A stretch of DNA of 64,000 bases from Algoriphagus sp. (GTDB lineage Bacteria > Bacteroidota > Bacteroidia > Cytophagales > Cyclobacteriaceae): NCBI GenBank assembly GCA_018336015.1, contig JAGXQZ010000075.1:1-64000 (forward strand), in the 5' to 3' direction. The translations under genes and the position numbers were made by a program. The notes beneath the pieces are model-generated. The model did not search any database. It was not told the DNA's origin and saw only the letters and a program-made list of their open reading frames with translations. Below are positions 4,433 through 64,000 of this stretch, piece after piece (the stretch's first letter is position 1; every line of letters starts with the position of its first letter).

Positions 4433-5776
4433 TTACACTTTTGGCACCTGCCAGCCATTGTGGTAATTGGCTTTCATTAATTGGTTGGCATCTGCATCAG
4501 TAAATTGATTTTTGGCAGCATCCCAGTACACTTTCTTGCCTGTCTTGTAAGCAATATTTCCCATTTGGGCATTGATCGCGGCGACTGAACCGGTCTGAAT
4601 AGCGCACTTAAGCAACTTGGGATCGTTAGCGGTCATGGCCTCTACAAAATTGACCGCATGAAGGTCTAAAGCACTAGGTCCTGCAGGTCGGGTATGGGGT
4701 ACTTCTTCTACCTTTGGCTTTCGCTGACCGTCCACATTTTCGGTTTCAGGGATTACTTTCCAACCACCACGATTAACGACCAAGGTCGCATTGTTTCCAA
4801 CAAACGCAATACCTTCTGTGGTGCCGTAGTTTCCTCCGTCGATACCTGTAGCATGCTCCCATAGCATATTAAATCCGTCGTATTCATACACAGTCTGAAG
4901 GGTATCAGGCGTCTCAGAAGCATCATCTGGATAAGCAAATTTCCCACCTGAAGCCATCACTGATTTAGGAGCACTTACACCCATTGCATAGAGTGCAATG
5001 TCGATCTCATGAACTCCCCAATCCGTCATCAATCCGCCCGCATAATCCCAAAACCAACGAAAATTGAAATGGAAGCGGTTGGCATTGAATTCTCTTTTCG
5101 GAGCAGGACCCAGCCACATGTTGTAATCCACTCCAGTCGGAACTGGACCATTGGCTACTACAGGTACCGGCTTCATCCAGCCTTGATATGCCCAGCATTT
5201 CACCAGACGGATCTGTCCGAGTTTTCCGGACTTCACATATTGAATAGCCTGATCATATTGCGAACCCGACCGTTGCCACTGTCCAACCTGGACAATTTTG
5301 CCGTAGCGTTCTTGGGCTTTGACCATGATTTGGCATTCTTCAATGGTATTGGCTATCGGTTTTTCTACGTAGACATGCTTTCCAGCAGATACTGCATCTA
5401 CCATGTTCAGGCAATGCCAATGGTCCGGAGTACCAACGATCACTACATCGATATCCTTGTCCTCGAGCATTTTACGATAGTCTTTGTATTGCTTGGGACG
5501 GGTGCCACGGAGCTTGAATACATCCTCGCTTCGCTGATCGAGCACACTCTGATCGATGTCACAGATCGCCACACAATTGACTTGAGGTATTTTCAGGTGG
5601 GCATTCATATTGGACCAGCCCATTCCTTTACAACCGATTAAGCCGTAGTTGATCTGGTCATTTGGACCAATTGTCCTTGTGAATCGACCAAAATCAGCCG
5701 CAGTGAGAACCGATGGCATACTCAAACCGGCTCCTAGCAGCATGGTGTTTTGTATAAATTTTCTTCTTGAAGTCAT
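4433..5776 (-). CDS. Gfo/Idh/MocA family oxidoreductase with Tat signal
   Basis: This 447-residue NAD(P)-dependent sugar oxidoreductase opens with a twin-arginine signal (SRRKFIQ plus a hydrophobic stretch), so it is exported folded to the periplasm. The Rossmann fold starts near residue 43 with GLIGCKGMG, a G-x-G-x-x-G variant. The conserved EKP motif (VYVEKPIANT) is in the N-terminal third, and a GFO_IDH_MocA C-terminal domain follows with the DWGVHEID block. Periplasmic members of this group oxidise sugars or glycosides at C3. The neighbouring DUF1080 gene on the same strand (234 bp upstream) encodes the matching 3-keto-glycoside hydrolase type, so the two probably work together. The substrate is unknown. 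Confidence 0.92.
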   Translation of the reverse strand: MTSRRKFIQNTMLLGAGLSMPSVLTAADFGRFTRTIGPNDQINYGLIGCKGMGWSNMNAHLKIPQVNCVAICDIDQSVLDQRSEDVFKLRGTRPKQYKDYRKMLEDKDIDVVIVGTPDHWHCLNMVDAVSAGKHVYVEKPIANTIEECQIMVKAQERYGKIVQVGQWQRSGSQYDQAIQYVKSGKLGQIRLVKCWAYQGWMKPVPVVANGPVPTGVDYNMWLGPAPKREFNANRFHFNFRWFWDYAGGLMTDWGVHEIDIALYAMGVSAPKSVMASGGKFAYPDDASETPDTLQTVYEYDGFNMLWEHATGIDGGNYGTTEGIAFVGNNATLVVNRGGWKVIPETENVDGQRKPKVEEVPHTRPAGPSALDLHAVNFVEAMTANDPKLLKCAIQTGSVAAINAQMGNIAYKTGKKVYWDAAKNQFTDADANQLMKANYHNGWQVPKV

Positions 5777-5787
5777 GGTTTTTAGGT

Positions 5788-5985
5788 TATTGAGTTATTT
5801 GTTATTGAGATATTCACGATTTCAGATTTACGAATTACGAGATTCTGAGAAGTTTCAATCCCTTTTGCACAATTCGACAATTAATGGATTGAATCCAAAT
5901 TGGTGCATAACTCTAATTTATATGTCGTAAATCGTCATTCGTAAATCGTAAATTTTAAGAATCTTCATTCATAAATCGTAAATCA
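5788..5985. repeat. Degenerate inverted heptamer repeat region
   Basis: The left part holds a 15-bp tandem (GTTATTGAG plus six bases, twice, 5788-5817), followed by TTTACGAATTACGAG. The right part holds the heptamer CGTAAAT at 5926, 5940 and 5947, with the variant CGTCATT at 5933. A second block (CATTCATAAATCGTAAAT, 5966-5983) lies 30 bp after its twin at 5936. The left heptamers are inverted relative to the right ones. The array runs up to the stop codon of the DUF1080 gene. Confidence 0.65.
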
Positions 5986-6750
5986 CAACGGTCTCACCCA
6001 AATATTTCTAAATCTCACCGGATTGCCATGGTCTTGCAGCTTAATCGGCAACGCCTCAGCATGAGCCTTGTAGTTAGGGATCCCGATGTATTCAGTTGGA
6101 CCTTTTAGAATTACATTGTTTTGCACCACTACCCCATTGATCAAGACAGTCACTGTAGCAGGAGAAGTTACCATGCCATTTTTGTCAAAACGTGGAGCTT
6201 TGAAGATGATATCATAGTAATTCCACTCTCCTGGAGCTCTAAGTGGATTAACCAAAGGCGGATGCTGCTTGTAGATAGATCCGGCCTGACCGTTGGTGTA
6301 AGTCTTGCTTTCGTAGCTGTCGAGGATTTGCACTTCATACATACCCATTAGGAAAAAACCGGAGTTGCCTCTGCCTTGTCCTTCACCCACGATCTCGGTA
6401 GGTGCAGACCATTCCACATGGTACTGCGCATCACCAAACGGAAGCTTGGACTGGATATCTCCCTTTCCACGAACAACTACCAATTCACCGTTTTCGATTT
6501 TCCACTCAGCCGGCGCATTTCCATCTTTTGCAGAAACAAAGTTGTTGAGGCTTGTTCCGTCAAATAGCACGATTGCATCAGAAGGTGGAAGGTTGTTTTG
6601 AGCCCCCGGGGTGATTTTCGGTGGAACAGGCGTGTAAAATTCCGTCGCCTGAGGAGGCATGGGAGGTGGGGTTGGATTTTGCTGGGCTAGGGTCAATTGG
6701 CTCAACATCATACCGCTTGCCATCAAGGCAAGAGAAAATAATTTTTTCAT
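5983..6750 (-). CDS. DUF1080 (3-keto-disaccharide hydrolase) family protein
   Basis: The 255-residue protein starts at the ATG at 6750 (MKKLFSLALMASG), which gives a clean signal peptide cleaved after TLAQ. An upstream start at 6780 would put ten odd residues before it. The mature protein is one DUF1080 (Pfam PF06439) jelly-roll domain: IVLFDGTSLNNF, then WKIENGELVV, GNSGFFLMGMYEVQILDS and GEWNYYDIIFKAPRF, ending in PVRFRNIWVRPL. Members cleave glycosidic bonds of 3-keto-glycosides. It sits upstream of the Tat-exported oxidoreductase on the same strand and likely acts on its product in the periplasm. A second paralogue lies at 60565. Confidence 0.92.
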   Translation of the reverse strand: MKKLFSLALMASGMMLSQLTLAQQNPTPPPMPPQATEFYTPVPPKITPGAQNNLPPSDAIVLFDGTSLNNFVSAKDGNAPAEWKIENGELVVVRGKGDIQSKLPFGDAQYHVEWSAPTEIVGEGQGRGNSGFFLMGMYEVQILDSYESKTYTNGQAGSIYKQHPPLVNPLRAPGEWNYYDIIFKAPRFDKNGMVTSPATVTVLINGVVVQNNVILKGPTEYIGIPNYKAHAEALPIKLQDHGNPVRFRNIWVRPL

Positions 6751-6886
6751 AGTACAATAGATTATTTTAGGATACTTCACTAATCCAATAAATTACTGGA
6801 AAAAAGGTGTGAAACGAAAAGCCGTTGATGGATTTTTGATGGAATTGCCCTATTACTTTTCTACTTTTCTGAAAAAAACCACCGCT

Positions 6887-20464: not shown

Positions 20465-21062
20465 ATTGACTGGTCTTCTTTTGGCTTTTTCCTTCTTTCT
20501 TGCTTGGGAAGGAATGGCTCAAACCGCAGGTGATTACTTTAACCGTGCCGCGAGGTCTTATGTGAAGACTGAAAAAGAACAAGCACTGAAAGAGGTAAAT
20601 GATGGCTTGAGTAAATTTCCCAATGATGCCAAACTGAAAGCTCTCAAGGAAAAGCTGGAAAAAGAACAAGAGCAAGAACAACAGCAAAATCCTCAGGATC
20701 AGCAGCAGCAAAACCAGCAAAATCAGGATCAAAAAAGCGAAGGAGAACAGGGAGAGTCCAAGTCTGATCAAAAAGACGGAGAGCAAACCAACGAGGACAA
20801 AGCCAAGGAAGGTCAAAAAGGTGAAAATCCATCCCAAAAAAGTGAGGAAGCCGGCCAAAACGCCAACGATCAAATGGACGCTAACTTAGCCGACCGACAG
20901 AAAAAGCTCGAAGAGATGCGGGAAAAGCTGAAGTCCATGAACCTCACTCCAGAACAGGCTGCTCAAATCTTGGAATCCATGAATTCCGCAGAGCTTAGAT
21001 ACATTCAAGAAAATAAGAAAAAACCAACCCAAAGACCAAAGAAGGGATTGCCGGATTGGTAA
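20454..21062 (+). CDS. Secreted low-complexity Q/E/K-rich protein of the Bat operon
   Basis: The 202-residue protein overlaps the previous gene by 11 bp. A signal peptide ends in EGMAQ, a single TPR-like motif follows (AARSYVKTEKEQALKEVNDGLSK), then about 90 residues dominated by Gln, Glu, Lys and Asp, and finally a helical pair (ADRQKKLEEMREKLKSMN, EQAAQILESMNSAELRYIQ). The last block is typical of the C-terminus of BatC proteins, so the BatC role may be split between this gene and the preceding one. Confidence 0.8.
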   Translation: MKIKLTGLLLAFSFFLAWEGMAQTAGDYFNRAARSYVKTEKEQALKEVNDGLSKFPNDAKLKALKEKLEKEQEQEQQQNPQDQQQQNQQNQDQKSEGEQGESKSDQKDGEQTNEDKAKEGQKGENPSQKSEEAGQNANDQMDANLADRQKKLEEMREKLKSMNLTPEQAAQILESMNSAELRYIQENKKKPTQRPKKGLPDW

Positions 21063-21070
21063 TAAGCTGG

Positions 21071-21126
21071 AAGACCGAAGACGGTAGACCGAAGTTACTT
21101 CCGTCTTCGGTCTTCGGTCTTTTATC
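21071..21126. repeat. Inverted heptamer array forming a terminator-like hairpin
   Basis: The array reads in exact 7-base units: AAGACCG AAGACGG TAGACCG AAGTTAC TTCCGTC TTCGGTC TTCGGTC TTTTATC. The first half is the inverse of the second. The stem 21071-21084 pairs with 21101-21114 over 14 bp. The T-rich end on the plus strand makes it a good terminator for the Bat operon. Confidence 0.8.
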
Positions 21127-21150: not shown

Positions 21151-22332
21151 ATGATCAAAGAAGTATACATCGTCTCCGCGGTGAGGACACCACTCGGAAG
21201 TTTTGGCGGAAAATTAGCTGGCATGACAGCCATCGAACTTGGAAGCATCGCCATCAAAGGTGCATTGGCCAAATCTGGCGTTGCCTCAGAAGCTGTCAAT
21301 GAAGTGTTTATGGGCAATGTAATTTCAGCTAATCTCGGTCAGGCACCTGCACGTCAGGCAGCCATCGGAGCCGGAGTCGGATATCATGTGCCCTGCACCA
21401 CGGTCAATAAGGTATGCGCCTCCGGAATGAAAGCTGTCATGCTTGCCGCCCAATCCATCATGCTAGGAATCAATGAGGTGGTAGTGGCTGGTGGCATGGA
21501 AAGTATGTCCAATGTGCCTTATTATGTCCCAAAAGCAAGATTTGGATACAAATATGGCAATGCAGAACTAGTCGATGGATTGGTAAAGGACGGACTTTTC
21601 GAAGTGTACTATAAGTTCCCAATGGGCAACTGTGCTGAGAATACTGCCAAAGAAATGAACATCACCCGTGAGCAGCAAGATGCCTATGCCATCCAATCTT
21701 ACCAAAGATCTGCGGCAGCTTGGGAGGCAGGTATGTTTAAGGATGAAATTGTGCCGGTGGAAATGCTTGGAAGAAAAGGGGAAACTATCCTAATGGAAGA
21801 AGACGAAGAATTCCGAAACGTGATGTTTGACAAAATCCCTTCCCTCAAGCCGGTTTTCGACAAAAATGGAACGGTTACCGCTGCCAATGCGTCCACCATG
21901 AATGACGGAGCTTCGGCTTTGGTCTTGGTCAGCAAAGAAAAAGCAGAGGAACTTGGCTTGAAGCCTTTGGCTAAAATCAGAGGCTTTGCAGACGCTGCCA
22001 CCGATCCGCTTTGGTTCACCACGGCACCTGCTTTGGCCATTCCAAAAGCTCTAAAGCATGCAGGGATATCAGCTGAAGAGGTTTCTTACTACGAAATCAA
22101 CGAAGCTTTTGCAGCGGTGGCAATTGCCAATCAGCGAGAATTGCATTTGGACAATGATCGACTCAACGTATTTGGAGGGGCAGTTTCCTTAGGTCATCCA
22201 CTGGGTGCTTCCGGTGCCAGAATCATTACCACCCTCACCTCAGTACTTCACAAAAAATCCGGTGAGATCGGCGTCGCTGGCATCTGCAACGGCGGTGGCG
22301 GTGCTTCAGCGATCGTGATTGAGAAAATGTAA
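21151..22332 (+). CDS. Acetyl-CoA C-acetyltransferase (thiolase)
   Basis: The 393-residue cytosolic enzyme has the full catalytic triad: Cys89 in NKVCASGMK, His349 in GHPLGASGAR and Cys379 in CNGGGGAS. The length is exactly typical. It condenses two acetyl-CoA to acetoacetyl-CoA or runs in reverse in fatty-acid and amino-acid breakdown. It stands alone between two hairpins and may feed the HMG-CoA lyase product acetoacetate, encoded 12 kb away, but that link is only inferred. Confidence 0.96.
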   Translation: MIKEVYIVSAVRTPLGSFGGKLAGMTAIELGSIAIKGALAKSGVASEAVNEVFMGNVISANLGQAPARQAAIGAGVGYHVPCTTVNKVCASGMKAVMLAAQSIMLGINEVVVAGGMESMSNVPYYVPKARFGYKYGNAELVDGLVKDGLFEVYYKFPMGNCAENTAKEMNITREQQDAYAIQSYQRSAAAWEAGMFKDEIVPVEMLGRKGETILMEEDEEFRNVMFDKIPSLKPVFDKNGTVTAANASTMNDGASALVLVSKEKAEELGLKPLAKIRGFADAATDPLWFTTAPALAIPKALKHAGISAEEVSYYEINEAFAAVAIANQRELHLDNDRLNVFGGAVSLGHPLGASGARIITTLTSVLHKKSGEIGVAGICNGGGGASAIVIEKM

Positions 22333-56850: not shown

Positions 56851-58092
56851 TCAGTCATCCAATAGGTCTTTGGACTGGGCTTCAGGGAGTTCTTGGATTT
56901 CTTTAAGCTTACGCTGAATCACCCTCGTCCGCACTCCCACCAACTTGTCCAACTCCGAATTTGCCTCGGTGAGTTTCTTTTGGGTTCGTTCCAGCAATTC
57001 TCCAAACTTCCCAAATTCAGTCTTAATCGCTCCCAAGACCTGCCACACTTCCGCACTTCTTTTTTGGATGGCCAAGGTGCGAAATCCCATTTGAAGGGAA
57101 TTTAAAATTGCCGAAAGCGTTGTTGGTCCGGTGACAATGACTTTGTAATCCTGCTGCATCTGCTGGGCTAGCCCTGGTTCCCTAAGGATCTCTGCATAAA
57201 GGCTTTCTACTGGAAGAAAAAGAATGGCAAAATCTGTTGTACCGGGGGGATGAATGTATTTGGATTGGATATCAGCAGCTGATTTTTTTACTGCTTTGAT
57301 CAGTTCGGCTCGGGAAAAGTCAATCGTAGTTTTGTCATTGGCTTCATAAGCATCTACCAATCTCAAGTAGGATTCTTGAGGAAACTTGGAATCAATCGGT
57401 AACAATACAGCCTCTTCCTGACCGGGCATTTTGATGGCAAACTCCACCCGATCTCTCGAGCCATTCACAGAAGCATTGACAAGATATTGATCCGGAGAAA
57501 GCAGGTTTTCCAAGATGGCCTGAAGCTGGTATTCACCCAACACCCCACGACTTTTTACATTTGTCAAGACTCTCTTGAGATCCCCCACTCCATTGGCTAG
57601 GCTTTGCATTTCACCCAGACCCTTTTGGACCGCTTGAAGCTGATTACTTACCAGCTCAAAGGATTGGCCTAATCTGGTTTCGAGTGTTTTTTGTAGCTTT
57701 TCGTCAACAGTCTCTCGAATCTTCTCAAGTCGCTCTTCGGTATTCTTGACCAGTTCCTCTTGTCTACGACTGAGCTCGGAAAGCTTTTCACGCTGCATGT
57801 TGCTGAGATCCTGCATCGATTGTCTGACAGTGTCCCCAAATTGTCTCAAGGCTTCATTTTGATCTTTGGAACCTGATCGTTGGTTTTCAAAAACCAATTG
57901 AAACTGTCGAATCAGATTTTCTGAGGACTCTTTCCTTGCCTCAGTCAGAGCCAGATTGATGTCTCGATTGATGCGTTGGAGATCATCTCGAAGAAGTTGA
58001 TTTTCCTTTGACTTATTTCTTCCTGAAAGGAAAATTAAAATGAGGGCCACCTGCGAGGCCAACAAAAGATAAATCAGAAATTCAATCTGCAT
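56851..58092 (-). CDS. rmuC: DNA recombination protein RmuC
   Basis: The 413-residue protein starts at the ATG at 58092 (MQIEFLIYLLLAS). It has an N-terminal membrane anchor (residues 4-21), a long coiled coil to about 185 (QREKLSELSRRQEELVKNTEERLEK in part) and the RmuC nuclease-like domain with SRGVLGEYQLQAILE, DSKFPQESY, HPPGTTDFAILFLPVESLYAE and GPTTLSAILNSLQMG. It limits inversion at short inverted repeats in E. coli. It overlaps the upstream alpha/beta hydrolase gene by 11 bp. Confidence 0.95.
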   Translation of the reverse strand: MQIEFLIYLLLASQVALILIFLSGRNKSKENQLLRDDLQRINRDINLALTEARKESSENLIRQFQLVFENQRSGSKDQNEALRQFGDTVRQSMQDLSNMQREKLSELSRRQEELVKNTEERLEKIRETVDEKLQKTLETRLGQSFELVSNQLQAVQKGLGEMQSLANGVGDLKRVLTNVKSRGVLGEYQLQAILENLLSPDQYLVNASVNGSRDRVEFAIKMPGQEEAVLLPIDSKFPQESYLRLVDAYEANDKTTIDFSRAELIKAVKKSAADIQSKYIHPPGTTDFAILFLPVESLYAEILREPGLAQQMQQDYKVIVTGPTTLSAILNSLQMGFRTLAIQKRSAEVWQVLGAIKTEFGKFGELLERTQKKLTEANSELDKLVGVRTRVIQRKLKEIQELPEAQSKDLLDD

Positions 58093-59098
58093 AAGCCACT
58101 TGTTTGGGTGGCTCAAGATAGTTTTTTCTTACTTCTACCCCGAGAAAGCTTAGGTATTCTGCGACAGACTCCGTCGGGATTTCCTCCATGGGCACATGAC
58201 CTGCTTCCTCAAAGATCACCAGATTAGAACCTGGAATGGCTTTTTCCAAGGCCTGACCTTGTGCAAGCGGAATCCAGGTATCCTTCGCTCCCCAAAGTAT
58301 CAAAGTCGGCATCGCAATTCGGTCAAACTGGATTGAGGAAGCTCTAGGTTGAGTCAAGCGGTCGATCGTAGCCTGCCTATTTCCTTCCCTTAGCAGCAAT
58401 TCATAGTACCTCGTGACCGCTTGATCCGTGACTTTTTTATCAACCCCATAGACCTCTTTCATGTTCATCGCAAACAAAAACTTAGGCGTGCACTTCAGAA
58501 GTATTTTGGAAAAAATTGGGTTGGTCGCCACTTTAAAAATCCACGCACCACCACCTCTTTGCTGAGTTTGGGTAGAATCGAGCACTCTTGTATCTCTCCT
58601 AGGTGCTCCGGAGGCATCGATCAGATTCAATGAAAGTACCCTATCCGGACGATCAGAAGCTACTTGCAGCGCAACAGCCCCACCCATGGAATTGCCCGCA
58701 AGGTGAAATTTGGGAAGATTTAGCTTTTCTGCCAGTAAAAGCACCAAGCGACTGTAATCCTCAATTGAATATCGCTTCAACTCATCCGGGCCAGTCAATC
58801 CATGCCCGGGAAAGTCCAACGAGATCGTCATGTAATACGGACTCAACTCTTGCTGCCATACCTCCCAAGTATGAAGGGAAGAAAAGCTGCCATGAAGTAA
58901 AAAGATAGGCTCACCCTCTCCCAGAAATCGAACATGGACATTTACTCCATCGACTTCTATAAAATGAGACTGTGGAGTAAGGTATTTTTCGTTTGCTTCA
59001 TCAGCGGAAATATCACTTCTGAAGAGCAAAGCCAAAAAAAACACCAAGGAAAGCACCACCAAAGCGAGTACTTTCAAAATCCGATTAACCCAACGCAT
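58082..59098 (-). CDS. Membrane-anchored alpha/beta hydrolase
   Basis: The 338-residue protein starts at the ATG at 59098 (MRWVNRILKVLALVVL), followed by one transmembrane helix. The hydrolase fold is complete: oxyanion block FLLHGSFSS, nucleophile serine in LAGNSMGGAVAL, acidic residue in WGAKDTWIPL and histidine in EEAGHVPMEE. It probably faces the periplasm. The substrate is unknown. It is divergent from the Nramp-like gene and upstream of rmuC in one transcript. Confidence 0.9.
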   Translation of the reverse strand: MRWVNRILKVLALVVLSLVFFLALLFRSDISADEANEKYLTPQSHFIEVDGVNVHVRFLGEGEPIFLLHGSFSSLHTWEVWQQELSPYYMTISLDFPGHGLTGPDELKRYSIEDYSRLVLLLAEKLNLPKFHLAGNSMGGAVALQVASDRPDRVLSLNLIDASGAPRRDTRVLDSTQTQQRGGGAWIFKVATNPIFSKILLKCTPKFLFAMNMKEVYGVDKKVTDQAVTRYYELLLREGNRQATIDRLTQPRASSIQFDRIAMPTLILWGAKDTWIPLAQGQALEKAIPGSNLVIFEEAGHVPMEEIPTESVAEYLSFLGVEVRKNYLEPPKQVAYAD

Positions 59099-59175
59099 GC
59101 TATAATTTTTCCAAGTGGTAAACAAAACCTACAAAAAATCTTCCCAAATCTCTATTTTCCCGAAAACTTCCATCC

Positions 59176-60402
59176 GTGAACCCAAAAAAAATCCTGGCAT
59201 CCATAGGTCCCGGTCCCTTAATCACAGCAGCATTTATCGGCCCCGGCACTGTTACGGTTTGTACATTGGCAGGAATCCGATTTGATTACACTTTGCTTTG
59301 GGCACTGGTGCTAAGCATTGTAGCCACAGTTTTTCTTCAGGAATTATCCGGAAGATTGGGAATCGTGACTGGAAAAGACCTTAGCGAACTAGTACGATCG
59401 CAGAAAGGAAACAAAAGCATTCGAATAGGAATCATAGCCTTGATTCTGATTGCGATCGGCCTTGGAAACGCTGCCTATCAAGGTGGAAATATCTCAGGAT
59501 CAAATCTAGGCTTAGGGATTTTTTTGAAATTCCCCGTTTGGAACATGGGGCCACTTTCGATTCAATCAGGCAATCTGACTATAGGAATACTCGCCTTGGT
59601 GCTGCTCTGGTCGGGCAATTATAAACGACTCGAACAGCTTTTGGTAGGCTTGGTCCTACTCATGTCAATTGCCTTTTTAGGTACGTCGATCTTGATCAAA
59701 CCTGATTTTGGCTTGCTTTTCCATGGCTTTATTCCCTCTTTTTCTACAGAAAAATTCCCCACGATCGTAGCCCTGATCGGTACCACCGTCGTTCCTTACA
59801 ACCTATTTCTATACGCTAGCCTAGTCAAAAAACAATGGAAAAATGCAGATGACCTTCCAAAAATGACCAGGGACATCAGTATATCTGTGATTTTGGGCGG
59901 AATTGTATCCATGGCTATTTTGGTTGTTGGGGCAGCCAACCCGTCTGAAAATTTGGAAACAGCACAAGATATCGCACGAGGTCTGACGGGAGTTTTTGGG
60001 GCATTTGGCACTTACTTAATGGGATTTGGCCTCCTCGCCGCCGGACTTACTTCCTCTCTCACCGCACCACTTGCCGGTGGATTGGTGATTTGCGGGATAC
60101 TAGGGTGGAACCAAGACATTCGATCCAAATCGATGAGAGCAAGCATGGGAGGCATTTTGCTCTTAGGAATTATTTTCTCCTCCTTTGGCATCAAGCCCGT
60201 CACATTGATCACTTTGGCACAACTCGCAAATGGTGTACTGCTACCGGTAATCAGCGCATGGTTGATTTGGGCAGCAAGTCAAAAATCCCTTCTTGGATCT
60301 CGTGCGTTGAGTTCAAAAGCTATTGTATTTGGATTAGTTATTTGGCTGATCACACTCATACTTGGTCTCAAGAGTGTTGGGGCTGTCATGGGTTGGTTTT
60401 AA
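59176..60402 (+). CDS. Nramp-family transporter with noncanonical metal-site motifs, GTG start
   Basis: The 408-residue protein has about eleven helices with the Nramp fold. The start is GTG. In place of the DPGN motif of helix 1, residues 22-25 read GPGT (AAFIGPGTVTVCTLAG). In place of the MPH of helix 6, the sequence reads VPY at 206-208 (TTVVPYNLFLYAS). Both sites bind metal in classical Nramp proteins, so the substrate or mechanism may differ. The following helices (SGNYKRLEQLLVGLVLLM) are normal. It stands alone. Confidence 0.9.
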   Translation: MNPKKILASIGPGPLITAAFIGPGTVTVCTLAGIRFDYTLLWALVLSIVATVFLQELSGRLGIVTGKDLSELVRSQKGNKSIRIGIIALILIAIGLGNAAYQGGNISGSNLGLGIFLKFPVWNMGPLSIQSGNLTIGILALVLLWSGNYKRLEQLLVGLVLLMSIAFLGTSILIKPDFGLLFHGFIPSFSTEKFPTIVALIGTTVVPYNLFLYASLVKKQWKNADDLPKMTRDISISVILGGIVSMAILVVGAANPSENLETAQDIARGLTGVFGAFGTYLMGFGLLAAGLTSSLTAPLAGGLVICGILGWNQDIRSKSMRASMGGILLLGIIFSSFGIKPVTLITLAQLANGVLLPVISAWLIWAASQKSLLGSRALSSKAIVFGLVIWLITLILGLKSVGAVMGWF

Positions 60403-60564
60403 TGATTGTATTTTTCAAAAAATTATAAACCATCTATCACAATACTTTATACAAAAAGACAACATCAAGTCCATTTGGTAGAAATCACTTTGATTGAATC
60501 AAAAAAACATGAACTTGCCTATTCTGAAATTTTCCTCTGCCATCAAACAACAAACCCTTCACCT

Positions 60565-61314
60565 ATGAAACGATTCACTTTACTTTCCAGTCTGCTTTTT
60601 GTGGTTGCATTCTCTCTGGCTTCACTTGCCCAACAAGCAAGCTATCTGGGTACCAAGCCTCCAAAAGGCGCCAAACTGTACCTCGATGGCACCAAAGAAT
60701 CGCTTCATAAAAACTGGAAATATTGGGAAGGGCCTCGTTTTTCGGGTGAAATGCCAATCAAATGGCCTGAAACCATTGATCCTGTAGATGGGAAAAAGGC
60801 GATTTCATCCAATGATCCTGCCGGTGCCGGAGGAAAGTACGGAGCTGCAGACATTGTGACAAAAGACGAATTCAGAGATTTTGAAGCCCACGTCGAGTTT
60901 TTGATCTTGAAGGAAAAAGGAAACAGTGGCGTTTACCTTCAAAACCGCTACGAAATCCAAATTCTGGATGGAGATTATGGCCTGCATGGCATGGCCGCAG
61001 TGATTAATGAAAAACTTCCTTCACAACAGGCTTATAATGGCGTTGGAAAGTGGAATGCCTACGATATTAAGTTTCGTGCTGCCCGATTTGAAAATGGAAA
61101 ACTGACTGAAAAAGCCAGAGTCACTGTTTTCTTCAACGGGGTAAAAATCCATGACAATGTCGAAATCCAGCAAGTTTGGGGTGGGCCTAATTCCGGCATC
61201 GATGGTGGAAATGATGGAGGAAAAGGCATCACTGATACCCCAGGTGGTCTAAAACTTCAAGCCGAAGGCCATGATGTGCTCTATCGCAATATTTGGATTA
61301 AGGCGGTGAAGTGA
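60565..61314 (+). CDS. DUF1080 (3-keto-disaccharide hydrolase) family protein, second copy
   Basis: The 249-residue protein starts at the ATG at 60565 (MKRFTLLSSLLF); the longer open frame to 60406 lacks homology. A signal peptide ends near SLAQ. DUF1080 features include GAKLYLDGT, EFRDFEAHVEFLILKEKGNSGVYLQ in part (KGNSGVYLQNRYEIQILDG), GKWNAYDIKFRAARF and VLYRNIWIKAVK. It is a paralogue of 5983-6750 and lacks an adjacent oxidoreductase, so it may act on products made elsewhere. Confidence 0.92.
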   Translation: MKRFTLLSSLLFVVAFSLASLAQQASYLGTKPPKGAKLYLDGTKESLHKNWKYWEGPRFSGEMPIKWPETIDPVDGKKAISSNDPAGAGGKYGAADIVTKDEFRDFEAHVEFLILKEKGNSGVYLQNRYEIQILDGDYGLHGMAAVINEKLPSQQAYNGVGKWNAYDIKFRAARFENGKLTEKARVTVFFNGVKIHDNVEIQQVWGGPNSGIDGGNDGGKGITDTPGGLKLQAEGHDVLYRNIWIKAVK

Positions 61315-61317
61315 GTT

Positions 61318-61424
61318 AGTGACCAGTGATCAGTGAACAGTGGTCAGTCGCAGTAATCAGAAGCTAGTCAAAGCAAATAGTGACAGTTCTTGTAAATAGT
61401 AAAAAGTGATCAGTCGCAGTCAGT
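61318..61424 (+). repeat. Left heptamer array (AGTGATC units)
   Basis: Units from 61318 read AGTGACC, AGTGATC, AGTGAAC, AGTGGTC, AGTCGC, AGTAATC. A second block at 61405-61424 reads AGTGATC, AGTCGC, AGTCAGT. It starts 4 bp after the stop of the DUF1080 gene and is the inverse of the array at 62063-62116. Confidence 0.85.
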
Positions 61425-61481
61425 ACAATGAGAATGTAGAGAACATCAGCTCGTAAAATCATTGAGGAATTTTGGTTTTGG

Positions 61482-61515
61482 GGGTCAGCTTAGTAGTAAT
61501 AGCTGACCCATTTTT
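61482..61515 (+). terminator. Hairpin terminator
   Basis: The perfect 9-bp stem GGGTCAGCT / AGCTGACCC with a 10-nt loop is followed by ATTTTTCT on the plus strand. It would end plus-strand transcripts and also lies just after the four-helix-bundle stop on the other strand. Confidence 0.8.
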
Positions 61516-61526
61516 CTATTAAGATT

Positions 61527-61907
61527 CTAGCTTTTAGGTTGAAGTTTTGATCCGAATTTTTCAGGATTAAGCATCATGAAATTCAATAGTTTTCCTATTT
61601 CAATCACCTCAGAAACCAATCTTTCGTGGGTAACTCTTTCGATATAATCACATGAAAATGCGAATTCAAGCCAAACATGAGTTTCACTATTCTCCATATC
61701 AGCATCACTAAGTTTTGAAATGAAGTGGGCTTGATACTTTCTTTTTCGATAAGATTCTGCAATACAAGCACAAACTGACCTGCTAGATCTCCTTATTTGA
61801 TCTGTTAAAGAATATTTTTCTTCTTTTGGAAAACCTTTGGAGAGTTGAAAAATCTCCATCGAAAGCTTGAATGCCTTTTGATAGGCTAAAAGTTCTTTGA
61901 AGTCCAT
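61527..61907 (-). CDS. Four-helix-bundle protein (S23/IVP family)
   Basis: This 126-residue protein begins MDFKELLAYQKAFKLSMEIF, followed by KGFPKEEKYSLTDQIRRSSRSVCACIAESYRKR, shown in part as LTDQIRRSSRSV, AESYRKR. Then come LSDADMENSETHVWLEFAF and a last helix. The family is encoded in 23S rRNA intervening sequences of several bacteria and resembles Avd of diversity-generating retroelements. Here it is free standing, A+T rich and enclosed by inverted heptamer arrays, which suggests an element of its own. The biochemical role is unproven; members bind nucleic acid. Confidence 0.93.
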   Translation of the reverse strand: MDFKELLAYQKAFKLSMEIFQLSKGFPKEEKYSLTDQIRRSSRSVCACIAESYRKRKYQAHFISKLSDADMENSETHVWLEFAFSCDYIERVTHERLVSEVIEIGKLLNFMMLNPEKFGSKLQPKS

Positions 61908-62062
61908 GTTACTATTTTGGCCTTAATAAATCTAACAAAAAATAGCCTAAACTTTTAATAAACTCACGCTATTACTAGATCCTATAATTAAGGTCCTCAC
62001 CCGTGGAAATATCCTGTTATAACCTGCACTATATTAACTCAGACTGACCAATGTGCTCAAAA

Positions 62063-62116
62063 CTGTGACTGATCTTTGATCACTGTGACTGATCACTGAC
62101 CACTGCGACTTCTCAC
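62063..62116 (+). repeat. Right heptamer array (GATCACT units)
   Basis: The plus strand reads in units of six or seven: GTGACT, GATCTTT, GATCACT, GTGACT, GATCACT, GACCACT, GCGACT, TCTCACT. These are the reverse complements of the units at 61318-61424. The array ends at the base before the stop codon of the HIT gene. Confidence 0.85.
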
Positions 62117-62509
62117 TCAAAATCCTAGTCGGATGGTAGAAGCAATTTCTGCCAATTCCTCAGGACTCAGTTTTAACTTAGGTCTGGTAAAATTGATGTC
62201 ATCCATCGTCCTCAAGGGTACCAAGTGAATGTGCACGTGGGGAACTTCCAAACCAATCACTGCCACACCGATTCGGGTGCATTGAATGGTCTTGTCCATA
62301 GCTTTAGCCACTGTTTGGGCGAAAAGGTGAAGGGCTGCCAATTCATCAGGCTCCATAGCAAAAATATAATTCACTTCTCGCTTGGGTACTACCAACACAT
62401 GGCCTTTAACCAAAGGCATGATGTCCAAAAATGCGATGTGCTGCTCGTCCTCTGCAATGATTTGAGCGGGGATTTCACGGTTGATGATTTTGGTAAAGAT
62501 GCTTGCCAT
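62117..62509 (-). CDS. HIT family nucleotide hydrolase/transferase
   Basis: The 130-residue protein has the histidine triad HVHIHLVPL at 91-99, preceded by FLDIMPLVKGHVLVVPKREV in part (IMPLVKGHVLVVPK). It is of the Hint branch and likely cleaves adenosine phosphoramidates or related nucleotides. It follows greA by about 55 bp with a terminator between them. Confidence 0.95.
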   Translation of the reverse strand: MASIFTKIINREIPAQIIAEDEQHIAFLDIMPLVKGHVLVVPKREVNYIFAMEPDELAALHLFAQTVAKAMDKTIQCTRIGVAVIGLEVPHVHIHLVPLRTMDDINFTRPKLKLSPEELAEIASTIRLGF

Positions 62510-62523
62510 AACTTTTCAGAATT

Positions 62524-62551
62524 AAAAAATCCCGATAGACCTACCGGGATT
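62524..62551 (-). terminator. greA terminator
   Basis: On the minus strand, AATCCCG pairs with CGGGATT and a run of six T follows. It lies between greA and the HIT gene. Confidence 0.88.
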
Positions 62552-62562
62552 CGATAAGATAG

Positions 62563-63036
62563 TTAATACGTGATTTCGAGGATTTCGAATTGAAGTGTTC
62601 CTGCAGGAGCATTGATCTCAGCAATCTCGCCTACTGTTTTACCAACCAAACCTTTTCCAAACGGAGATGCCAAGGAAATCTTGCCCGCTTTCAAATCGGC
62701 TTCTTCCTCTGAAACCAATTTGTAACTCACGGTCATTCCATTTTTTACATTTTTAATTTTAACTGTGCTAAGAATACCCACTTTGGAGCTATCCATCTGT
62801 GAATTGTCCAACACACGCGCATTGCCTACGACAGCTTCCAACTTAGCAATTTTCAATTCGAGAAGGCCCTGAGCATCTTTTGCAGCATCATATTCAGCAT
62901 TTTCGCTAAGATCACCTTTGTCTCTGGCTTCAGCGATCTGACGCGCAATATCTGCTCTTCCTTTGGTCTTCAATTCCTGAAGTTCATCTTTCAATCTCTT
63001 TAGTCCCTCTTCGGTGTAATACTGTACTTTTGACAT
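62563..63036 (-). CDS. greA: Transcription elongation factor GreA
   Basis: The 157-residue protein starts at the ATG at 63036 (MSKVQYYTEEGLKRL). It has the N-terminal coiled coil with the acidic tip in GDLSENAEYDAAKDAQG, then the C-terminal FKBP-like domain with ISLASPFGKGLVGKTVGEI. It rescues backtracked RNA polymerase by stimulating transcript cleavage. The start at 63081 in the longer frame is not conserved. Confidence 0.97.
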   Translation of the reverse strand: MSKVQYYTEEGLKRLKDELQELKTKGRADIARQIAEARDKGDLSENAEYDAAKDAQGLLELKIAKLEAVVGNARVLDNSQMDSSKVGILSTVKIKNVKNGMTVSYKLVSEEEADLKAGKISLASPFGKGLVGKTVGEIAEINAPAGTLQFEILEITY

Positions 63037-63191
63037 AGCTAACTGATTTTCGAAAGGCACAAAAAACAAAGTAACGGTCACTTGTCGGAGACCGTTACTT
63101 TGTTTTTGCCTTTATGTACGTTGCAAAGATAGGAAAGCATTTCGACAAAGCAAGCCACAAAACACTGCGAAAAAGCCCAATTTGAGGGATT

Positions 63192-64000
63192 TTAATTCCT
63201 GAAGGCCTTTTTGATTTGTTTCACCAAAACCTCGTTGATCTTGATATATGACTCAAAAGTCCAACCAGCCACATGGGGGGAAAAAATCACGTTTTCCCGC
63301 TGAGCCAACCGTTCAAATCCTGCTTTTTGTGAGGCTGAGAATTTCTGAAACTTCTCATTTTCCAACACATCCAACACTGCCCCTTTGAGGACTCCCTGAT
63401 CCAAAGCCTGATTGAGTGTCTCAAAACTGATTACCTCACCTCGTGCGGTATTGATCAGCCAAAATGGTTTGGCAAAGCTTTTCAGCTCTTCTAACGTAAA
63501 AAAATCTCGGGTTTCCGGAGTCAATGGCACATGGATACTCAAGACATCTGCTTCAGCTTTGACTTTTTCCCACATCACTTCATGTACGGTCTCCGTACCA
63601 AAATCGACCTTGTATTTATCATAGGCTAAAACTTGGACGCCAAAGCCCTTCAACCTCTTGGCAAAAGCACTTCCCATATTTCCATAGCCAAAAATGCCTA
63701 CCGTTTTCCCCATCAGCTCATGGCCACGGTTCCCTTCTCGATCCCAAATTCCCTTTCGCACTTCTTGGTCAGCTTTTGGGATATGGTTAAAGAGAGCCAA
63801 AAGACCCCCGATGGCATGTTCGGCCACCGCATCCCGATTTCCTTTTGCTGCGTGAAAAAGCTTTACTCCACGATCATTTAGGTAATCGAGATCAATCTGA
63901 TCCAAGCCTGCCCCTGCTCTTCCGATAAATTTCAGCCGGGTGGCTTTTTCCAAAAGCTCTCGATCCATAGGAGTTTTTGACCGAATGATCAATCCTTCAT
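63192..64000 (-). CDS. D-2-hydroxyacid dehydrogenase, 5-prime end beyond window
   Basis: At least 269 codons are open to the window edge; the TTG at 63992 is not a real start. The NAD-binding fold is VGIFGYGNMGSAFAKRLKGFG in part (GIFGYGNMGSAF), with catalytic residues in LINTARGEVIS (Arg), DVLENE (Glu) and SPHVAGWT (His). FIGRAGAGLDQIDLDYL precedes. It resembles phosphoglycerate dehydrogenase-like enzymes without the ACT domain. It is likely to oxidise or reduce a D-2-hydroxyacid; the substrate is not evident. About 45 N-terminal residues should lie outside. Confidence 0.93.
   Translation of the reverse strand, partial: EGLIIRSKTPMDRELLEKATRLKFIGRAGAGLDQIDLDYLNDRGVKLFHAAKGNRDAVAEHAIGGLLALFNHIPKADQEVRKGIWDREGNRGHELMGKTVGIFGYGNMGSAFAKRLKGFGVQVLAYDKYKVDFGTETVHEVMWEKVKAEADVLSIHVPLTPETRDFFTLEELKSFAKPFWLINTARGEVISFETLNQALDQGVLKGAVLDVLENEKFQKFSASQKAGFERLAQRENVIFSPHVAGWTFESYIKINEVLVKQIKKAFRN

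Follow-up and report, generated by a model that had tools for sequence, protein, structure and literature searches.

Inward-facing heptamer arrays around an S23/IVP gene of Algoriphagus and around related genes across the S23 family

The S23/IVP gene and its arrays

The window, i.e., the whole stretch of 64,000 nucleotides analyzed here from Algoriphagus sp. (contig JAGXQZ010000075.1, in a genome of 4.46 Mb), carries one S23/IVP gene between two arrays of AGTGATC-type units that are reverse complements of each other and run inward (Table 1). This layout had been given in a preliminary description of the locus and is confirmed by the sequence, by TRF (period 7 at 61318-61348 and 62068-62105) and by protein profiles. 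In 61318-61354 and 61397-61420, the left array follows the series AGTGACC, AGTGATC, AGTGAAC, AGTGGTC, AGTCGC, AGT and so on, some units of the arrays being 6 bases long. Both arrays are present as described, except that the left one has a decayed middle at 61355-61396, and the longest inverted pair (61331-61373 with 62063-62105) spans 43 nt with 74% complementarity. The arrays do reach close to the stop codons of both neighbors, as that of the left gene ends at 61314 and that of the HIT gene begins at 62117.

Table 1. Coordinates of the arrays, the S23/IVP gene and adjacent features in the window.
Feature	Position	Strand	Basis or remark
3-keto-disaccharide hydrolase ORF, left neighbor	60406-61314	+	PF06439
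Left array, AGTGATC-type units	61318-61424	+	points towards the gene; middle decayed
Hairpin GGGTCAGCT/AGCTGACCC with T run, which may end transcription of the left neighbor	61482-61517	+	sequence; also in the RNA fold
S23/IVP four-helix-bundle gene, 126 aa	61527-61907	-	profiles, AlphaFold model, Foldseek
Right array, reverse complement of the left	62042-62116	-	points towards the gene
HIT gene, right neighbor	62117-62509	-	PF01230

Among ORFs of at least 60 aa, the S23 gene stands alone between the arrays, with no transposase or reverse transcriptase gene; the earlier statement that the arrays enclose this gene and nothing else thus holds for ORFs, while a short hairpin with a T run also lies there. 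A conventional transposon was rejected because the unit has no transposase ORF. A chance pair of repeats was likewise rejected, given the survey of arms described below and the genome-wide matches to AGTGAYCAGTGAYCAGT with at most 2 mismatches, which number 49 (some overlapping) versus 5 when the query is reversed. Folding of the array-to-array transcript, proposed as a check in the preliminary description, gives paired arms for 61314-62120 on the minus strand (MFE -215.2 kcal/mol, z -3.21), and none of 20 shuffles was as stable.

The protein is a member of the S23/IVP family by both profile and fold tests. It matches PF05635 (4.2e-31, 107.7 bits, cut-off 33.8) and TIGR02436 (3.1e-28, 98.2 bits, cut-off 24), and the AlphaFold model of the monomer (pLDDT 95.8) has the four-helix-bundle fold, with Foldseek returning 2gsc (TM 0.84) and 2rld (TM 0.76). 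These two solved relatives have five chains each. The accessible text of one source describes the S23p of Xanthomonas as a homopentamer, and the function of S23/IVP as unknown (PMC4990558). The nearest named relative of the window protein is from Algoriphagus sp. AK58 (Bacteroidota, 91% identity), and the family is matched in 116 of 148 Bacteroidota genomes, with up to 15 copies per genome. The window protein also resembles Avd of the diversity-generating retroelements (DGR) in structure (4dwl, TM 0.76, E 0.011). It scores 38.3 against the Avd profile NF033474 (cut-off 80) and 39.4 against the bAvd profile (cut-off 40), and a DGR identity of the unit was rejected since both scores are under the cut-offs.

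Inverted arms, repeat units and gene orientation across S23 loci

Nine S23 matches over the Pfam cut-off occur in the window genome, and inverted arms with a local score of at least 18 flank six of them (L001, L003, L004, L005, L007 and L009). The arms of L002 and L006 are weaker (17 and 16), and the decayed copy L008 has none; in-frame stops are present in L006 and L008. The units differ within this one genome, i.e., GAAGACC, AGTGATC, GTTCGGG, AGTTGNA (7 and 8 mixed), AGAGATT and ACGAGTT. The survey sample comprised 119 S23 loci, of which 9 are from the window genome, 30 from the genus, and 80 are named loci, taken as the top-ranking 80 among 143 relatives in a search with the window protein, with titles that include Bacteroidota, Chlorobi, Cloacimonadota, Planctomycetes, Calditrichaceae and Marinimicrobia. 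Two loci with short flanks (L097 and L151) were left out and 117 kept.

Counted over these loci, which share descent and come from overlapping sets (the window gene is L003 and its orthologue L072), inverted arms scoring at least 18 flank 87 of 117 S23 genes versus 9 of 329 other ORFs of the same loci (own 6/9, named 57/78, genus 24/30). The controls gave 10/117 versus 15/329 without complementing, and 5/117 versus 1/329 when the arms were only reversed. A period of 7 in both flanks (at least 20 of 28) was found at 32 of the 117 S23 genes and at 7 of the 329 other ORFs; any other period from 3 to 13 occurred in at most 1 of 117, with the harmonic 14 in ten and 15 in three. The arm threshold was reached by 12 of the 25 loci tested among 28 new ones of a phylum-wide set, and 14 of 20 further S23 genes of the genus have arms; flanks cut from the longest ORF miss the arms of L002 and L004, which scored 17 and 20 in the main survey. 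The arrangement is thus common around S23 genes, not universal. Arrays are not equally frequent around unrelated genes, and the window locus is one example of a family-wide arrangement rather than the special case it had been taken for. Similar arms at other S23 loci also led us to reject a unit peculiar to the window. A scan of a phage collection gave no S23 locus, and one of viral contigs gave a single distant locus.

A plasmid search with the window protein returned 38 records, of which 36 are cyanobacterial. Ten cyanobacterial plasmid loci were read, and eight have inverted arms of at least 17; the best period is 8 in six, 9 in one and 7 in two, with none in the remaining one. The unit in these plasmids is mostly an octamer of the AGCAGGGG type rather than the expected CARTNNN heptamer, and the known heptamer was seen at none of the ten loci. 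The S23 genes of L300-L307 on such plasmids have inverted G-rich arrays, most of them with units of 8 bases, and integrase genes adjoin L303, L306 and L307. One plasmid locus of Picosynechococcus sp. PCC 7003 (L309, 1486-1842) has its S23 gene, which is flanked by short inverted arms, within a type III-B CRISPR operon, with cmr2/cas10 on one side and cmr3 on the other.

The repeat unit follows the lineage of the protein. From 149 loci, 146 matched the S23 profile, 144 had both flanks, 126 had a unit in both arms, and 121 non-identical proteins were left for comparison. Across these, which span phyla, protein identity and unit similarity are correlated (Mantel rho 0.62, 0 of 1000 permutations as high), with mean unit similarity rising from 0.70-0.71 below 30% protein identity to 0.95 above 80%. 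By eye, most relatives of the window protein, from several phyla, have CARTNNN as their unit and six of these relatives (four Pedobacter and two MAGs) have GGAGTTN, AGTNGTA appears at 45-49% protein identity, and more distant S23 lineages have GTACNAA, AGTATCA and AAGANNC. An AGT core is present in 70 of the 126 units, the next being CAG (35). A within-genome check on twenty S23 genes (part of those present) from four more genomes, together with seven from the window genome, showed that, where a unit can be seen, S23 genes of one genome differ in it and homologues in other genomes share it. No recent gene copying inside a genome is seen, since the S23 genes of a genome are diverged (median 29% identity, highest 73%, n = 64 pairs). 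For the L004-type gene of G045 and G000, the proteins of which are 95% identical, horizontal transfer was considered and set aside, as the flanks are syntenic and descent is the simpler explanation.

Because the unit follows the protein lineage, the protein probably recognizes its own array, which makes the recognition of the flanking repeats suggested in the preliminary description probable on sequence grounds. Positions 71, 74 and 105, which fall in helices 3 and 4, separate CARTNNN (41 proteins) from GGAGTTN proteins (6) and are candidate specificity positions, which are only a lead as they are confounded with descent. The idea that a paired stem is the recognized feature is so far unsupported: arm-to-arm mismatches show no bias towards G-U wobble (170 versus 192, p 0.27), so that arm pairing itself does not look conserved. 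What does look kept in the arms is the fixed bases and the inward direction.

The orientation of the S23 genes is also biased. The upstream neighbor is co-directional in 144 of 152 loci with an ORF of at least 90 aa on each side (4 loci with the neighbor beyond 500 bp were set aside), and by one and the same method in 60 of 66 S23 genes versus 72 of 113 other genes (p 4e-5). Because of this co-directional neighbor, the S23 gene probably depends on read-through transcription from upstream.

Gene-less arrays and variable junctions

AGTGATC-type arrays without a gene occur elsewhere in the window genome, several of them forming short hairpins where a gene ends (by eye, in 7 of the 15 array loci viewed). 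At 21070-21121, the window has a hairpin without a gene, built of GAAGACC-type units like those of the S23 gene L001; one ORF ends before it at 21062, and a thiolase-like ORF begins after it at 21151. A gene-less inverted array of ACGAATT / TCGTAAA type, resembling the arms of the S23 gene L009, lies at about 5827-5990, between the minus-strand ORFs 4433-5776 and 5983-6780. A de novo scan over 400 kb of the genome found 4 inverted events of period 7 and none of period 5, 6, 8, 9 or 10, although even this looser scan misses short hairpins visible by eye; a stricter one-side scan over 400 kb found no inverted arrays.

Across 59 genomes of the genus, the class of array goes with the matching class of S23 gene. 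The classes were set by hand (class I at least 57% identity, with partial matches of 61% over 77 residues unused; class II 43-53%, with a decayed copy in G027 counted; class III at least 61%, with a decayed piece in G009 counted). In counts that ignore the kinship among the genomes, class I arrays are present in 16 of 18 genomes with matching S23 versus 16 of 41 without, class II arrays in 13/13 versus 4/46, and class III arrays in 25/25 versus 21/34. The six mismatched pairs of classes gave Fisher p values of at least 0.076, although a rank test on one of them gave 0.036 (class II arrays, class I S23). Part of this association is due to the gene's own arms. When these are removed by coordinates, class II remains at 11/13 versus 4/46 (p 3e-7), and class III is still associated after subtracting 8 matches per genome (p 0.00094), whereas class I fades (p 0.026 after subtracting 4 per genome and 0.067 after 8). 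Arrays are also present where the matching gene is not: G017 has 5 class I array matches and no PF05635 match, and G024, G033 and G037 have 45, 18 and 30 class I array matches without class I S23. The array pattern AGTACNA has 84 to 153 matches in six small incomplete genomes of the genus (G002, G004, G006, G010, G012 and G050; 2.2-2.8 Mb), and its reversed control has none.

At the HIT 3' end, 56 genomes of the genus had a match and 30 loci were read. Only 4 of the 30, the window included, carry a class I S23 element, which together with the lack of any Rfam family match in 58000-64000 bears out the description of an IVS-like unit outside rRNA. The empty site that had been proposed as a thing to look for in relatives is present in six of the 30 loci, which have both neighbors of the window gene with no S23 between them, and the gene is thus not found in the same place in all relatives. 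One of the six (G058, with neighboring proteins about 94% identical) carries a gene-less GTAAGTG hairpin there, and similar hairpins are seen by eye at the HIT 3' end in G039 and G027. A GTAAGTG-class S23 gene is present elsewhere in G058 and G039; in G027 its only possible sign is a decayed S23 relative of 53% identity. The other 23 loci have neither element nor such a hairpin, and many of them have a terminator-like hairpin (by eye).

At the trpE-trpG junction, 29 loci remained after one mis-cut locus (L255) was dropped. Eleven carry an S23 element from one of two families, three carry remnants and fifteen none, which requires at least 7 changes of presence or absence on the trpG tree, a single-gene tree with many weak forks. 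The remnants are a 5' gene piece, a lone array and a shortened gene (L248, L253 and L265). Of the sisters G034 and G047 (trpG 95.5% identical), one is occupied and the other has an 11-bp gap, and the sisters G022 and G015 (trpG 97.5% identical) carry different S23 families. Over the final three 60-bp steps of trpE, starting with the nearest one, mismatches number 15, 0, 0 for L256/L260 and 12, 1, 1 for L242/L243, as would fit an element that was imported together with a short stretch of flank. For L242/L244 (12, 8, 2), import of the element with its flank would fit weakly, and L270/L269 (6, 14, 8) does not appear to fit. Four pairs of empty loci have, by inspection, no such mismatch step near the junction, and no target-site duplication was seen by eye with occupied and empty trpE-trpG junctions side by side. 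When G023 is compared with G055, the stretch enclosed by the arrays has the opposite orientation (511 bp, 82%), while both flanks are colinear at 87%. On the other hand, several elements are syntenic between species, and these look old.

These data can be set against other explanations. The S23 protein could be a host regulator and the arrays its binding sites in mRNA, for autoregulation at its own gene and, where scattered, for a regulon, so that the scattered arrays would not derive from a selfish element. The match between array class and S23 class and the position, by eye, of scattered arrays at gene ends agree with this, but S23 genes that come and go at junctions between close relatives, decayed copies (L006 and L008 with their stops, and the trpE-trpG remnants) and arrays in genomes that have no matching S23 argue against it, and we consider it unlikely. 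More doubtful still is a reading of the arrays as ordinary repeat tracts or terminators that lengthened through slippage and hairpin-mediated copying, and in which an S23 gene merely settles; neither the tracking of protein lineage by the unit across phyla nor the different units of S23 genes in one genome would be explained in this way, in spite of the capacity of the arms to pair and the terminator-like hairpin often seen by eye at the HIT 3' end of array-less relatives.

Proposed S23 elements and known systems

We consider it probable that an S23/IVP gene, together with inward arrays of its lineage's own unit, mostly of 7 nt, forms an IVS-like element. We read these elements as likely residents of transcribed junctions, with array-only derivatives. 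We infer binding, the nature of its target (RNA or DNA) and the way in which the element moves: an S23 oligomer would bind several consecutive units, either in the RNA of the read-through transcript or in DNA, and this binding would maintain the element or help its spread. Speculatively, each subunit might take up a single unit, in keeping with arms that are only a few units long. Part of the spread at the trp junction may be ordinary homologous recombination of the flanks. Movement in the form of RNA, copied by a reverse transcriptase from elsewhere much as the related Avd acts with the reverse transcriptase of DGR, would agree with the Avd-like fold, the weak Avd profile matches, the strong orientation bias and the recruitment of a bRT-Avd complex by a structured spacer RNA (accessible text of PMC12875486), but it appears very improbable, as the unit itself has no reverse transcriptase and the orientation bias may equally reflect a need for read-through transcription.

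Returning to the S23 element with its own arrays, a wider proposal is offered tentatively, as one that may well not hold. S23/IVP might be a large family of proteins that read arrays by a code particular to each class, often AGT as the core with further bases that differ between classes, and each protein with its own unit would be an enzyme-less mobile element dwelling in transcripts. These elements and their gene-less remains would then make up much of the intergenic heptamer repeats of bacteria, and the rRNA IVS would be one landing site. The function of S23 and the agent of the heptamer repeats would become one testable question, namely which protein reads which unit. If true, nature would offer many variants of a protein-to-nucleic-acid code, as well as a small selfish element that brings no enzyme.

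The logic is similar to that of REPIN/RAYT, in which a protein and a matching repeat class are accompanied by gene-less copies in the genome. RAYTs are HUH-type nucleases, whereas the S23 unit has no transposase and S23 is its only gene. The likeness to Avd lies in the four-helix fold, and the differences are that the window protein falls under the Avd cut-offs and that no reverse transcriptase lies between the arrays.

Known intergenic heptamers, such as GGGAATC of Xanthomonas and GGGGA(C/T)T of Nostoc (PMC4692102), TAACTGA of Beggiatoaceae (PMC4679880) and those of Geobacter (PMC2700814), are like the present arrays in being dispersed, tandem, in part inverted and mostly intergenic. In the accessible text of these sources they are described without an agent and, unlike the arrays found here, with no mention of a link to S23. 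In the literature searched, largely without subscription papers and bioRxiv, no S23-heptamer link was found beyond the IVS of Coxiella, as far as the accessible text of the sources goes, and the family-wide association between S23 genes and arrays was not found there either.

Among the closest known systems is this rRNA IVS with an S23p ORF; in Coxiella burnetii it carries terminal inverted repeats, and its ORF is preceded by two or three heptamers in tandem (accessible text of PMC4990558). It shares with the window unit S23 as the sole gene, stem-forming terminal inverted repeats and heptamers before the ORF, and would be the case of such an element sitting in 23S rRNA. The window unit differs in lying outside rRNA, without an Rfam match and with protein genes on both sides, and the S23 units described here differ in having arrays on both sides, a unit class that tracks the protein, and gene-less arrays elsewhere.
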